Assembly: GCF_000003605.2 (NCBI RefSeq) | Contig: NW_003108586.1 | Coordinates: 175,762 to 221,335 of the forward strand | Direction: 5' to 3' | DNA from: Saccoglossus kowalevskii | Lineage: Eukaryota; Hemichordata; Enteropneusta; Harrimaniidae | DNA: 45,574 bases | Part shown: in pieces, positions 7,876-25,412 of the stretch | Layout: every line of letters begins with the position of its first letter | Position numbering within the stretch: the first letter of the stretch is position 1 | The notes under the pieces: generated by a model | Seen by the model: the letters and a program-made list of their open reading frames with translations, nothing else | The model's database searches: none | What the model was told of the DNA's origin: nothing | Position numbers and translations under genes: made by a program

Positions 7876-10800
7876 CTGTAAAACAAATACAACAAAGGCG
7901 ATGACGGTGTGGGGTACGAGAGCGTTTTGTTGTCATTAACAATGAAACGTCCACTACATAGAAAGTAAGTGGATACAAATGAGTTGCCAGCTGTAATGTT
8001 TGTATAGGCAACACAAAGATCACACAAAGGATTATTGTTCAGCAAACCTTTTGTCCCATCAGTTATCATAAGCATCTACTTTCTTAAATCCAACTATAGG
8101 GGGCAGTATGTAACTTTCAACGTCAAAAACTGCAGCCTCTTAAATTATACCAAGGTTAGACATGCATATTGACAGTTAAGAGCGACAAAATTAGTTTTAT
8201 TTACAGCTATATTAATCCACTGAGGATGCAGTTGGAGAGTAATTGAGAGGAATATGTAAACAATTTCACCAGTTTATTGTCATACTTTCATCTTTGGGGT
8301 TATTACAAGGATAATGAAAAGTTGGAAGTGAGAGGATTGACCAGCAGTGGTAAATTTAAGTGAAATCAAAAAATATCATCAACGATTTAAAATCATGTAC
8401 GCTGATAAGCGATGAAGGTCTCATGAGAAGCGAACATTAGCGTACCCTCATTATAAACCTTGGTATTACCCATTTTTCATTCATACAATTCAGGTATCAT
8501 TAAAAAAAATGTAGCAAACGCTCAAATCTAGATAGAAAGGCCAAATTTGACAAAATCACTGACCCATAAAGTGAAATGTTCACTGCTACATCCAAATTTG
8601 TCTCTCGTGTGAAAAACAGCATTTATTGAAGAGCATAGGTGTAAACAGTTGAATTTCTGGGATAAAATTTGACAAAATTCCATCAAGTCACTGTGCCTTG
8701 AACGTCCACATGACATATGAACATTTGGGTTTCTCTATTCTATGGCAAATACAAATAAAAACAGATAACTAAATCAAAAAAAGTTTAGAAAGAACTTCTG
8801 TTTGCTAAGGGTATTGGAAGCATGAATCACAAATAAGAAATACTGTATTTACTATATTAGAAGCACATCTCCAATATGTATAAAGAATAAATTTTATCTA
8901 TTGCATGCAAAATCATTAAAATATGACTTTTTTTGACCAGACTTGCCATTGTCATTTACAATTATGCATATGAGCTTCAAATGGAGGAAAAATGGCATTT
9001 AAAATATAAATGCAAAACTGATCAGGGTGGTTCCAAGTGGCTATGGTATAACAATTATAAATATTTAATGAAATCATGACCATATTTGATGACTTGATAT
9101 TTTGGTCTTGTATCTTATCCGAAAACACAATTATAGTACTATTTGTATGTCCCTATCTGCAACTATACTTAAGATAATACAGTTTTAATTAGGTCACATG
9201 ACCATATATGGTCATCTGATATGTTAGTCATACTTCTTGTCAAATTCCTTCATTAGAGCACTAGTTGCAAGCCCTTATCAGCAACAGGGCTTGACCCCAT
9301 ATTCATATGACCCAATTTTCAGAAAGTAGGTAATTAATATGCTTGGATTTCAACCCTGAAGTAAAAGGATATGTGGATTATCCAAAAGCACCTGTGTTCC
9401 AGTTTTTTTTTTAATTTGATGATACTCAAGATATCTGGATACTGGGTAATTTATGCAAATTACGTAATTAGTAAGCGCAAAAGTTAACCTTAAGCATGGA
9501 TATGGGTTATGTACCAAGTTTCATTGAAATCTGACGAGATATTGGTGAAAAAGCTTAAAATGGGCTTATTAATATGCAAATTAGATCATTAATATGCACA
9601 GATTTCAACCAAAACCTATTCAGGTCTAAGTATTATACCAAAGCATCTATGTACCAAGTTTCATTGAAATCTGACGAGATATTGGTGAAAAAGCTTAAAA
9701 TGGGCTTATTAATATGCAAATTAGATCATTAATATGCACAGATTTCAACCAAAACCTATTCAGGTCTAAGTATTATACCAAAGCACATATGTACCAAGTT
9801 TCATTGAAATCTGACGAGATATTGGTGAAAAAGCTTAAAATGGGCTTATTAATATGCAAATTAGATCATTAATATGCACAGATTTTAACCAAAACCTATT
9901 CAGGTCTAAGCATTATACCAAAGCATCTATGTACCAAGTTACATTGAAATCTGTTAAATGGTACTTGAAAAACAAATGAAAATGCTTAAAATTGAAATCT
10001 GATAATTGGTTCCTGTGATATAAGTGGAAAAGACACCTCCCAAATATATATACACAGACACACAAAATGCAAAGACTACACTGGAGTAAAAAATAATTAA
10101 TGTGAACATTTTGAATTATTGTGAACGTTTTTCGGTAAGCACTGAGTAACAATTGGGAATTATAGTAGTCTGTAAAATATGAAACAAATACTGTAGAATA
10201 CTTTATTTTCGCTTGGAATTTATTTTCGCTATTTTCGCTGAAGGGATGATTCCATGAAAATAAAATCCAGCGAATAAACTTTTTTTCCTATATTTCACAT
10301 TAAACTCATCAGAAATCAGTGAAAATAAATTCCATACAAAACTCCCAAAAAGCCTTTTCAGCCGAGCGAAAATTAATTCCAGCGAAAATAAAGTATTCCA
10401 CAGTAATTACAGTTAAAGGTACTTACAAATTTTATGTTTTCCTTTAATGGGAAATTTAACAATCAACTCAAGTGGATTTTCACAAATAAAAATATATGGT
10501 GAACCAGACTCTCCATCTGGAATCTGAGGGCAAAAAAGATAAATTAAATGCATGTTTCATTGTTAATATAAAAGCATGTTTTACATACGAAGCAGAAAGT
10601 GTAATTAATTGAAACAGACATGCTGTTAAAAAAAACATGCCAACTATATGAAGCGCCCTCTATAGTTGAAATTCACATTTTTTTACGGGCAACTCAAAAA
10701 AGAGCAAAATTTTAAGTTCTTTCATTCATATACCATATTTATCTGGGTAAGGGCCGATGCAAAACGCCCACTCCCCAATTTTGATACAATAAAGAAATTG

Positions 10801-13800
10801 AGATCATGTCCAGGCATACGCCCAGGGGATCTTTTTCTACACTTTTTTTTTTCGTTGTATTAACAGTTGACTTTCTTGTTGTGAAAAATATCTGTTGATT
10901 GCGTAAAACGAGGGGTGAACGCGAAATAACTGTGAGAGCCTTCAGGGCAGCACGGTAGTTCTCTTTTAGAAATATGTTGTGGCCCTGAAAAGGGCTGCTT
11001 GGTTTGTGCTTCCTTAGAAACAATTTAAGCAAATCTTGCAGTATATAAAGAGCCGCAAAGCAAGTGTCATACTCGTTCGGCTTTAGCGTCGTCGACAATG
11101 AAATCAATGTTGCAATATTGTATCAACCCATACCAGGAAAAGTGCTTGAAATAACGTTATTTTGGCTTTATAAATAGTTGACAGTTTGTGAATCCATAAC
11201 TGGGGCCAGCAATTTTGCAATGTCACGCCGAAGACTGCCAACTTTTTTACCATCTTTCATCACCGCTGTTGCATTTCTGTCATGAAAATTATTCTTCTGT
11301 CATTGGAGAAAAAAAAATTCCTAGTTCAAGCCCAGCACGATATCCATACAGTGAGACATTTCAACTGTCGGAACTTGCTGAATGGTAACTTTCACCGTGA
11401 TTGATGAGTGCCTAGTCTGATAAGAAAGCAATGTTGACTTGACCTCTATGATGAAACACGAGTAGTGATGTCATTCTTAGCCAATCAGTAAAGCAGATGA
11501 TTAAAGGGCAAAGATGATTGACAGAGATGTGATAAGTTTTTTCAAACAACTACGAACCTCCGTAATTTTTACCATGAAATTTGTAAATTATTATTGACCT
11601 TGTATGACAGTTGATTTTTAATTTGTCAAAACCAAAAATAATTTTACGCAGTTTAATCCCTGACATTTTAGTTCATTTTGAGTTCAGATGTATTGGGCGT
11701 GTTTGTCGGCGAGGAAATGCTAATTCAAATGATTCCTCACTGTCTATTTTTATTATGTTGGTTTATTTGTCACATTATAAGCAATAAACTATTTTTGTTA
11801 TACTTCTAAGTTGCATATTGTTCATTTATTTCCAGTGAATATTTTCATTTGCCATTCTATTCCCTGTCACAATTTAATCTGCATGTTGTCAATTTTTCAT
11901 TTTCAGGACCCTGGGCGCTTACCTGGATAATTACGATATTTATATAAATAAAATCTGTAAATGCATGTCTGAGAAACAACAGACCAATGAGAGCAATTCC
12001 TGTTTTTCAACAGAAAAGTAAAATTAATAGATATAAAAATCAGAAATCAAGATGCAGCATTAATAAACTTGAATTGGTACAAATGGAAGGACATTTGTTG
12101 GCAATTAAAAGTTGTTTACCTTTTCTCGATACTGCTCTTGTGATAAGCAATCTGTAACATCAACACTACCCAACAAACAACTGACTGGATACTGGGAAGG
12201 GAAATCAAAATGTTCATCTGCAAAAAAAACAAAGTAAAGAAGAAGAAGTTTATTCCATCTACATGGTAAGCAGGCACACACAGTGGGATCACTATACAGT
12301 ATTGTAAAGGACACAATGTGGAGAAATGTACTTAACAGTTTTTTGGCAGACCTGTATCATTCCACATTCAGTGTTCATACCCAATCACAATAAATTAAAT
12401 TTTCATTTTATAATTTATTTGGTTGTTTTTGTATTATATTTACCTGTCTAATCAGTTTCAGATTATTTGTCATATTTTACAACCAGCATCAACACATCCC
12501 GGCGCCACAGTGATTGTGAATTATTGTTTTCATATTTCTCTTAAAAATAGGCTATTATAAATGCTGTTTGATAGTGACAAAACTGTTTACTTGTCTTTAC
12601 ATATACATACACTTGTACGTATTCAGAGATATATAGTCAACAAGTATTAATTTCTTCCAACATAAAGGATGTTACTTCTCTACATTTCTACGAATCAAAT
12701 AATCATAATATGGCATAATAACTCTGTCATCCTCTTAAAATCCACTATTGAAGAGTGGCAAAATTGGAACTTTAACTCTCAACAAAATATTAATGCCTGT
12801 AACACTATGTTGCTTAAGCAGACAGAGGAACCATGACAAGTCATATTTGCACCATGTTTTGCAATCTGTTTAATTTTCCATAAAATGTGATAGTAAGACC
12901 ACTATACACTTTTAGTGTTTTGTGCAAAACGTGTCGGATGAAAGAGTTTTAAGCAGTGACATTGCAATATTTTGATGATTCAGCATACAATAAATGCATT
13001 TTTTGGTTCATACCTGTGTCTATAGAAGATACATTTCTAATATTGCAAATATGGTAGTCATAATTCAGACCAACTGACAAGGTTTTGTATCTCATAGTGG
13101 TTTTATTTTGGTAGAAACAAAGCCTGCTTGAGCATGTGTCGCATTCAAGGTTGATAATAAGTGTTGAGTGTCTTCAGCTGTATGCACAGGCTTATAACTG
13201 TGTTGTAGATTCCGTAGAAGTATCAAAATATTCAATCCAATTAGACTTACTCGGGTAAATAATCTTATGTGCATTTTCAACTTCAGCTATTTCTTGTGGA
13301 GTTGGTCTATTAGCAGCAGCGGCTATCCATAACCTGCCTCGATGTGCACTGTACCAGGTTCTACCTTCATGTCTAGAAATTGAAATACACAGGTGTACAT
13401 TACTTTGCTGGTCATAAGGTCTAAATACAACCCAGGTAGGAACATATTGAGAAAAAAAGAGTGGGTGACCAGTATATATGATACCCATGCTATTGCCATC
13501 ACCTAACATTTCATGTACTGGTAACTTACCAGCTATAAGCAATGACGCCCAGGGTTGGTGCATACTGAGACATATCCCATCATCTGACATTTCAAGTAAC
13601 TTACTTTTTAATACCAGCTATAAGCAATAACGCCCAGGGTTGGTGCATACCGAGACATATCTCATCATCTGACATTTCAAGTAACTTACTTTTTAATACC
13701 AGCTATAAGCAATGACGCCCAGGGTTGGTGCATACTGAGACATATCCCATCATCTGACATTTCAAGTAACTTACTTTTTAATACCAGCTATAAGCATTAA

Positions 13801-16800
13801 CGCCCAGGGTTGGTGCATACTGAGACACATCCCATCATCTGACATTTCAAGTAACTTACTTTTTAATACCAGCTATAAGCAATGACGCCCAGGGTTGGTG
13901 CATACTGAGACATATCCCATCATCTGACATTTCAAGTAACTTACTTTTTAATACCAGCTATAAGCAATGATGCCCAGGGTTGGTGCATACTGAGACATAT
14001 CCCATCATCTGACATTTCAAGTAACTTACTTTTTAATACCAGCTATAAGCAATGATGCCCAGGGTTGGTGCATACTGAGACATATCCCATCATCTGACAT
14101 TTCAAGTAACTTACTTTTTAATACCAGCTATAAGCAATGACGCTCAGGGTTGGTGCATACTGAGACACATCCCATCATCTGACATTTCAAGTAACTTACT
14201 TTTTAATACCAGCTATAAGCATTGACGCCCAGGGTTGGTGCATACTGAGACATATCCCATCATCTGACATTTCAAGTAACTTACTTTTTAATACCAGCTA
14301 CATTTGTATAAGCAATGATGCCCAGGGTTGGTGCATACTGAGACATATCCCATCATCTGACATTTCAAGTAACTTACTTTTTAATACCAGCTATAAGCAA
14401 TGACGCCCTCGGTTGGTGCATACTGAGACATATCCCATCATCTGACATTTCAAGTAACTTACTTTTTAATACCAGCTACATTTGTATAAGCAATGACGCC
14501 CAGGGTTGGTGCATACTGAGACATATCTCATCATCTGACATTTTAAGTAACTTACTTTTTAATACCAGCTATAAGCAATGATGCCCAGGGTTGGTGCATA
14601 CCGAGACATATCCCATCATCTGACATTTTAAGTAACTTACTTTTTAATACCAGCTATAAGCAATAACGCCCAGGGTTGGTGCATACCGAGACATATCCCA
14701 TCATCTGACATTTCAAGTAACTTACTTTTTAATACCAGCTATAAGCAATGACGCCCAGGGTTGGTGCATACTGAGACATATCCCATCATCTGACATTTCA
14801 AGTAACTTACTTTTTAATACCAGCTATAAGCAATGACGCCCAGGGTTGGTGCATACTCAAACACATCCCATCATCTGACATTTCAAGTAATTCTTTATCT
14901 TGAATACGTAGAATACGTGATTGTGAGATTTCTGATTTACTATTACCAGTAGATGCTTGAGACTTGTTATCTAAAACAAACTGGTAACAGCAGAGATTAT
15001 TGTTAATTTTTTCTGCTTTAACAAAATACACATACACATTAGCTCTTATCATTATATGTAAATAAGCTACTGTAAAATACTTTAATTTAGCTGGAATTAA
15101 TTTTTTAAAAGTTGAATGTAAAATATAGGAAAAAGGTATATTCGGTGCAAATTAGCTATAATTATGTGTAAATAAGCTATTATCACTATATTCAAATTAG
15201 CTGCCATGACTGGGCATATACCTCTGAAGAACACGATAGGAATATCAATTTTGTCTTGAAGATGTACAAATTATTGGCACCTGTATCTCACTTATAACTC
15301 ACTTTTGGTGCTGGCTGGCTAATACCAGGTTTAATAAGACCACTTGTCTTTTGACTTTCAGTCCTGTAATCAGTACCAAAATTTACAGCTTGGACTACTG
15401 CATCCTCCCTATAAAAATGAATTGACAACAACAAAATTGGGAATAAGAAATACTGAAAAACAATGCAGTGGCATGTTTTTCTTCTTCTTTTTTTATGTAT
15501 TACGATTATTCAATACCATAACAACAAGATATACATGTATGTTTAACAATTAACATGATCTATTAAATAATGCTTTGAAATATATGCAGTAAAGATCTAT
15601 TTGAAATGACTAAACATCCTCTGCAGCAGAAAACATTTCCATATTCTATTGTATTGGTGCAGTTTACCACTATGTAAAAAATAACAAGTCATTGTTAATG
15701 ACACAGTCCCTGTCCACAATTTTGTGATCTGACATATCAATTTGATGCTGATTAAGTCATTGAGATTAGATTGAAACCATTAATAGGAGATGGATTTGTA
15801 AAAAATTATGATTTAGTGCTTTTACAAGAGAATTGGATATTGGGCAGTCATATTGAACCAAATTACAAAAATAATGTTCATGTTGATGTATCTATTGATA
15901 TACTGTTTTTGTACAAAATTTAAACACAAATGTTCATTGCATTCATGAGAAAGTAGGCATGGGTATCATGAAAAACAAAATGGCCACCAGTCAGCTATAT
16001 TAGTTTGAATCACAGAAAATATATGACATGCAATTATAACCCAATAGATATGATCACCATACCAACTTTGATTCGAGCGGGGACTAAAAAGTGTGAAGCC
16101 TGGTTTTTCAAACAAAACTAGCATGATGATGAAACATGTTTTAGTGACGGACCTAAAATAAGTTTTAGGAAAGATATGACAGTGAAATCTCTTCAAAATA
16201 ATCTATAATACGAGTAGTATTTACTAGCTCTCTTGTTAGTTTTGATTTGGGTGGTGTGACCTCTCTCATTATATCGACAACCAGAAACATACACAATAAC
16301 ACGCCAGAAGAGGATTCCTACCTGTCGTACATATTGATTGGTTCATTGTCTTCAATTACTTTTCTCCCAGCAAAGTCTAGTGTAATCTTTTTGCCTCTTC
16401 TGGAACCATGTCTTTGCTCCCTTAGCTCATCTTCTCTATTTTTCAAGACTTCTCTCTCCTTTTTTGATAACCATCTATTGGTATCAGTTGCGAAATAATC
16501 TGATTCATCATCAATTACATGTGTTCTTCGTGCACTACAGAAGTACAGAACAACCTGAAGTTATATATATGCATAGACCATGCATTATTACATAAATGGT
16601 GTATGTTCATCATAGTGTGGTGTATGGCGGAGCATATAAATACTGTAGAATACTTTATTTTCGCTTGAAATTTATTTTCGCTACCTTCGCTGAAGGGATG
16701 ATTCCGTGAAAATAAAATCCAGCAAATATACTTTTTTTCCTATATTTAACATTCAACTCATCAAAAATCAGTGAAAATAAATTCCATACAAAACACCCAA

Positions 16801-24130: not shown

Positions 24131-25412
24131 TAGTCCCCGTTCGGACGCAGTCCGAAAACGGGGACTTATGTTTTGCCCTGTGTGCGTCCGTCCGTCCGTC
24201 CGTCCGTCCGTGATCACCTGTATCTCGAACATGCATGGACCGATTAAGTTCAAACTTCACTCATACATCACACATATGGGACATATGCACATGCATTTTT
24301 TTCATGATCCGATTAACGATAGCCGAATAGCGGCCATTTTAAGGCCGAAAATGCATCAAAATCGCACATTTTCACCATTCCGGACCCGGATCTCAGTTAT
24401 GCATGGACGGATTTTGTTCAAATTTGGTACATACATTAAACATAATAGGACCTTGATGCACGTCATTTTTTTTTTTGGATCGGGTTCGAAATGGCCGACT
24501 GGCGGCCATTTTGTTTTAAAGAATTCAGTTCTGGATCCGTATCTGAGACATGCTTGGATTGATCGAGTTCAAACTTCACACACACAAGATGCATCATGTC
24601 ACAAATATGTATGTGCATTTGTTTCATGATCTCATTAACGATAGCCAAATGGCAGCCGCTTTAAGGCCGAAAATGCATTGAAATCGCACATTTTCACCAT
24701 TCCGGACCCGGATCTCAGTTATGCATGGACGGATTTCATTCAAATTTGGTACATACATTAAACATAATAGGACCTTGATGCACGTCATTTTTTTTTTCGG
24801 ATCAAGTTCGAAATAGCCGACTGGCGGCCATTTTNNNNNNNNNNNNNNNNNNNNNNNNNNNNNNNNNNNNNNNNNNNNNNNNNNNNNNNNNNNNNNNNNN
24901 NNNNNNNNNNNNNNNNNNNNNNNNNNNNNNNNNNNNNNNNNNNNNNNNNNNNNNNNNNNNNNNNNNNNNNNNNNNNNNNNNNNNNNNNNNNNNNNNNNNN
25001 NNNNNNNNNNNNNNNNNNNNNNNNNNNNNNNNNNNNNNNNNNNNNNNNNNNNNNNNNNNNNNNNNNNNNNNNNNNNNNNNNNNNNNNNNNNNNNNNNNNN
25101 NNNNNNNNNNNNNNNNNNNNNNNNNNNNNNNNNNNNNNNNNNNNNNNNNNNNNNNNNNNNNNNNNNNNNNNNNNNNNNNNNNNNNNNNNNNNNNNNNNNN
25201 NNNNNNNNNNNNNNNNNNNNNNNNNNNNNNNNNNNNNNNNNNNNNNNNNNNNNNNNNNNNNNNNNNNNNNNNNAGTCATGCATGGATGGATTTTGTTCAG
25301 ATTTAGCACAATGTGTTGTACATATGCAGGTGCATTTCGGTCATGATCTGCTTTGAATGTATATGTCACTCAAATATGAACGGAACGGGGACATGTCATT
25401 GACAATGACTTG
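24131..25412. mobile_element. repeat element with 5' hairpin and internal 322-bp tandem units, interrupted by an assembly gap
   Basis: It opens with a perfect-stem hairpin (AGTCCCCGTTCGGAC, then GTCCGAAAACGGGGACT), followed by (GTCC)n at 24186-24211. Two long units follow: CGGACCCGGATCTCAGTTAT recurs at 24381 and 24703 (322 bp apart), each followed by ATGCATGGACGGATTT and CGAAATGGCCGACTGGCGGC (CGAAATAGCC in the second). After the gap the unit resumes (ATGCATGGATGGATTTTGTT), and the right end reads ACGGAACGGGGACATGTCAT, which brings back the ACGGGGAC of the hairpin. The long frame across the left part only translates the repeats. No transposase is visible; it is probably a non-autonomous element. 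Confidence 0.7.
24835..25273. other. assembly gap, 439 N
   Basis: A run of N inside a tandemly repeated element. The true length is unknown, and the gap probably marks a collapsed or unresolved repeat. Confidence 0.99.

Follow-up and report, generated by a model that had tools for sequence, protein, structure and literature searches.

Intron 7 of TRIP4, as found in the 45,574-nucleotide stretch of DNA analyzed here (the window), carries 15 head-to-tail copies of the end of the preceding coding exon and its 5' splice site, and this array takes up 1281 bases, as counted from the sequence, in an intron of 1438. Very probably, it is a minisatellite of the type described in lancelets as a mirage, namely, one that was seeded by an exon-intron boundary, amplified in the intron under neutrality, and is spliced out whole. 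Under this reading, the boundary of the TRIP4 coding exon would have been tandemly duplicated first, and the duplicate would then have been amplified inside the intron via unequal exchange, slippage, or gene conversion. Coding selection would act only on the most upstream unit, the true exon end, with the 15 downstream units drifting as intron. The true upstream donor would be used and the whole array removed, whereas the choice of a later donor instead would lead at once to a stop codon and a truncated message.

The host gene was identified from minus-strand exons that were picked by eye from open frames and joined in order, for which small errors at the exon edges are likely. The joined sequence matched human ASC-1 (TRIP4) collinearly over residues 27-495 of the 8alz_A chain (E 5.7e-112). 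The exon that ends at the array, the seventh by count, covers 162 nt (14811..14972, minus strand), with its frame open to GIK(K) and its upstream limit probably at TTTTAG/ATAACAAG. The true 5' splice site, AAAAA/GTAAGTT, lies at 14804..14810 on the minus strand; splicing from there to 13372 reads GIKKHEGRTWYS, gapless to human GIKRVEGRSWYT. More broadly, the splice from 14811 to 13372 yields ...LLIAGIKKHEGRTWYS..., which aligns without gaps to human ...LLVRGIKRVEGRSWYT..., and since the splice product is gapless to human TRIP4 at the protein level, the donor at 14810 is taken as the true one. The next exon (exon 8 by count; 13251..13372, minus strand) follows the acceptor TTTCTAG/ACATGAAGG and matches human TRIP4; its 3' end was read from the sequence just before the GTAAGT at 13250-13245. 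The sequence, the units, and the splice match together place intron 7 (1438 nt) at 13373..14810 on the minus strand. The gene, exon end, and donor named in the first-pass annotation are borne out by these matches, and its intron number agrees with the by-eye count of exons with ordered matches to human TRIP4, a number that one missed exon would change. The spliced sequence also matches human ASCH structures. The Pfam ASCH profile (PF04266), searched against the genome exon by exon, gave no match, and the same profile matched in 5 of 14 control genomes; because introns divide the domain in this gene, this search is underpowered.

Two descriptions of the array agree. Tandem Repeats Finder (TRF) called it at 13527-14890 with a period of 85, 15.9 copies, 94% matches, and a score of 2416, and decomposition of the minus strand gave 16 units, the first starting at 14888 and the last at 13597. 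The founder unit (14804..14888, minus strand), as defined by unit decomposition and copy alignment, is the true exon end followed by GTAAGTT, so that the boundary is spanned by 78 nt of exon and 7 nt of intron. The 15 intronic copies follow without spacer at 13523..14803 on the same strand, and the limits of 13523-14888 proposed earlier proved exact to the base. Twelve of these 15 copies measure 85 bp. Two, starting at 14548 and 14370, measure 93 bp and share the same 8-bp insert, located at 14480..14487 and, two units off, at 14302..14309 (minus strand; both placements are ambiguous by a few bases). The last copy, which starts at 13597, has lost the 10 bp adjoining the donor and is 75 bp long, which leaves CTG/GTAAGT as the final donor motif of the array (GTAAGT at 13524..13529, minus strand). 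GTAAGT is present in all 16 units, as had been claimed for the 5' splice site, and the minus strand of the window contains this hexamer 16 times within the array compared with 11 times in the approximately 44 kb elsewhere.

That an assembler expanded one or a few copies is a reading that we regard as improbable. The scaffold does contain many N stretches, which speaks for it, but the array itself is free of N, the sole N run of the window being at 24835-25273, and the copies differ from each other in variants and indels that occur in mosaic order across the unit alignment. Furthermore, assemblers more often shrink than expand arrays of this type.

Within the searchable genome, the array is confined to its own locus. 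The unit as DNA query gave 16 matches, all of them at the array, and a 71-amino acid piece of human ASCH gave eight matches, all at the TRIP4 locus and corresponding to two exons and six copies, with 52-66% identity exon by exon. Among the matches listed for the flank 12800-13530, the only full-length one was at its own locus. No second TRIP4 copy or haplotype was found in the searchable assembly by the unit, flank, and ASCH-piece searches. A dispersed repeat family as the source of the array is not supported, with the unit matching the TRIP4 locus only. As a separate observation, the flank includes a dispersed element of about 90 bp at approximately 12963-13065, which accounts for 37 of the 39 further flank matches listed, at 74-91% identity and on other scaffolds.

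The intronic copies are closely alike and stand apart from the exon. Their mean identity is 97.0% (105 pairs) when the 8-bp insert and gap columns are excluded, as they also are in the exon-consensus and neighbor comparisons below; the true exon end is 95.1% identical to the copies, which indicates that the array was homogenized apart from the exon. The exon and the copy consensus disagree at three unit positions (25, 29, and 31), and ten unit positions vary among the copies. According to the first-pass annotation, nearly all copies keep the ASCH coding sense, which overstates the case: two of the 15 are frameshifted by the 8-bp insert, one is interrupted by a stop in frame (TGG to TGA), one has a W to R change, several carry other missense changes, and the last copy has an altered end. 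Selection keeping the copies coding is likewise not supported. The ratio of nonsynonymous to synonymous changes among the copies is 8:2 (one of the eight being the stop), set against 179:46 for all possible single changes and 54:21 for transitions only, a comparison that rests on ten changes and is thus of low power. There is no sign of coding constraint, and the coding sense of the copies looks like a leftover, the copies resembling the exon because they are young.

The changes are not spread evenly along the unit. All 12 changed positions (the ten among the copies plus 29 and 31) are in 5-56 and none in 57-85, the part that includes the donor; the chance of such a substitution-free segment is 0.011 for ten sites and 0.004 for 12, values obtained post hoc. 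The lack of substitutions in 57-85 is unexpected from neutral drift alone and is a weak hint in favor of a different reading, in which the array acts on splicing: the 15 extra donors would recruit U1 in competition with the true donor, a wrong choice would lead to an immediate stop and decay, and copy number would set the amount of productive TRIP4 mRNA. However, the same part of the unit accommodates indels, being the site of both the 8-bp insert and the 10-bp loss. The retention of GTAAGT in 16 of 16 units also fits competing donors, but it needs no selection given such a short donor and, as judged from the 97.0% identity, such a young array.

The strength of the donors bears on the same issue. 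They were scored with a human weight matrix. The true donor and 14 of the copies reach 7.8 bits each, a score attained by 50 of the 2711 minus-strand GTs, these 15 included, whereas the last donor, CTG/GTAAGT, scores 10.7 bits and ranks third of the 2711. The best-scoring donor of the array is thus the last and not the true one, which, like the TAA within the donor itself that stops read-through, speaks for the decoy reading. Reading through the true donor gives GIKK and then an immediate stop, the skipped donor supplying AAG TAA. Most simply, splicing would be expected to use the first donor, which gives the shortest exon (162 nt if its upstream limit is right), and to remove the array as intron. 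The lancelet cases treated below are reported to splice regularly, which also argues against a role as decoys, and we consider such a role unlikely, although slightly less so than an assembly artifact. About as improbable as that artifact is the combined version, namely, a mirage outside lancelets that is not neutral, in which 15 decoy donors free of nearby substitutions compete for U1, the TAA stops wrong choices, and copy number governs productive TRIP4 splicing. An open frame of 141 codons (13192-13617) connects the last copy with exon 8 across the whole intron tail; it was taken as chance, with 3.6% of the tail shuffles also open.

A further way in which the copies could be used is as cassette micro-exons, each delimited by a CTCAG acceptor and a GTAAGT donor and adding a frame-keeping insertion of 45 nt that contains MHQPWASLLIAGIK. 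At two sites fixed in the copies, TTTGAG has become TCTCAG (TTGAG in the true exon, CTCAG in the copies), and 45 is a multiple of three. Nevertheless, CTCAG is not preceded by a pyrimidine tract, its AG is also present in the true exon, the changes look random, and the last copy would yield 35 nt and hence a frame shift, all of which makes this the least credible of the readings, with very little probability attached to it.

As to how the array arose and grew, additional information comes from its distal edge. Just past the last copy, in the expected order, 19 of the 22 bases at 13496-13517 (minus strand) equal the start of the unit, and only one of 1000 dinucleotide shuffles of the intron tail matched the unit start as well. 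This segment probably represents a partial 17th unit, an edge copy that is old and has diverged. With up to five substitutions allowed, the 22-base start of the unit has no match in the window outside 13401-14900, and the similarity of the upstream flank to the unit is no higher than that of shuffles. A first duplication through TTAC microhomology had been proposed. TTAC is indeed found at both junctions, but given the diverged 17th remnant beyond the array, the present distal edge is not clearly the first breakpoint, which makes this origin uncertain. Subsequent growth by unequal exchange, as was also suggested, is plausible because copies separated by two units share the 8-bp insert and variants turn up repeatedly in separate copies. 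However, adjacent copies did not resemble each other more than copies placed at random (0.66 of the permutations gave a similarity as high), whereas amplification by exchange between neighbors would predict alike neighbors; this counts against the preferred reading of a boundary-seeded, neutrally amplified array.

Parallels exist with lancelets, for which published reports describe tandem repeats that span exon-intron boundaries, many of them with splice signals, under the name mirage. Affected genes include Adh3 and the globins BflGb6 and BflGb9 (PMC3087553), as well as troponin C (PMC3902484). The boundaries of lancelet mirage clusters are described as escaping the homogenization of the inner units (PMC3087553), and mirage genes are reported to be regularly spliced, with RT-PCR for the globins (PMC3087553, PMC3902484). 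Length polymorphism between alleles is another mirage trait. The TRIP4 array shares the anatomical traits: its unit lies across an exon-intron boundary, all 16 units carry GTAAGT, and a homogenized interior (97.0% versus 95.1%) is accompanied by a diverged edge in the form of the probable 19/22 remnant. In BflGb9, too, the 3' boundary of an exon is duplicated (PMC3087553). Differences concern the gene affected, the size of the unit, the number of copies, and probably the animal group. The unit of 85 bp compares with 10-72, 150-160, and 157 bp in lancelet mirages, and the 15 intronic copies compare with six and three repeat units per haplotype in BflGb6. The 60-bp and 108-bp tandem repeats of lancelet PGBD5 are similarly short duplications at or overlapping splice sites (PMC3902484); they are described as imperfect and the 108-bp one is a triplication, whereas the TRIP4 array has 16 units. 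Another relative is the model of Rogers of intron gain by tandem duplication of sequence bearing AG/GT, with cases in Drosophila and the potato RdRp gene (PMC2891723, PMC4974935). Splice signals are multiplied in that model as in TRIP4, but the TRIP4 copies are in an existing intron and no new intron was seen.

Exon-derived minisatellites of this kind had been called rare; the kind is not new, having been described in lancelets, but is little known. In the literature as judged by titles and the starts of abstracts, with few subscription papers covered, arrays of this kind appeared in the two lancelet reports only. Two lancelet marker proteins, B. lanceolatum SCP and a lancelet-derived fluorescent protein, had no match in the genome, in searches for which 91,972 of the 241,300 letters of the scaffold stretch are N and the queries lacked a genome with a known match. 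The 71-amino acid human ASCH query, by comparison, did match exon by exon at 52-66% identity. Histone H2B of this genome was at best 83% identical to the human protein and 92% to a mollusc form, which does not decide the affiliation of the host, and searches with the GFP and bantam families found nothing here or in any control genome. Since neither lancelet marker matched, the case possibly lies outside lancelets, and the TRIP4 array may be a mirage from beyond that group. It is a real and clean example, probably neutral, of a known but little-known kind.

Minisatellites that span such boundaries illustrate how the end of an exon can give rise to a tandem array, and its splice signals be multiplied, while the gene survives; they are relevant to how splice-site choice copes with decoys and to the gain of introns through tandem duplication. 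Finding one so long and regular, in a conserved gene and probably in a non-lancelet host, would point to a process that is not lancelet specific. The TRIP4 array also represents a natural test of splice-site choice among 16 nearly identical donors.

Other repeats were inspected in the same material. No genome-wide excess of donor-bearing arrays was detected: a pattern of AGGTAAGT repeated three times, with gaps of 40-70 bases in between, matched 583+530 times versus 848+248 for the backward pattern, where the triple pattern is one that would miss the present TRIP4 array and the listed places are on five contigs. GTRAGT was absent from the consensus of five other long arrays in a 241,300-letter stretch of the scaffold, 91,972 letters of which are N; when the flanks of these five were viewed by eye, two had N beyond the array and one was largely N. 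A 28-bp minisatellite of 28 copies at 2-787 of the window, with the consensus AATTGGTAAGTCAGTGAAAATGCAGTTG, contains GGTAAGT, and its left side runs into N, so that no exon edge is visible there. A CGTC simple repeat (24185-24211) adjoins duplicated blocks of about 300 bp at 24220-25310 that are interrupted by N (24835-25273). At 9508-9953, there is a 140-bp tandem repeat of 3.2 copies with 97% matches and the motif TTAATATGCAAATTAG, and similar text is found in L035 near 7570. Finally, in 56,845 non-N bases of other scaffolds, a two-copy 114-bp tandem duplication, 95% alike, was observed at L035 7037-7267. The first copy has GTGCGT and the second GTAAGT, with TTGTAG just before each GATGG, and this may be a second boundary or small-exon duplication involving a putative exon.
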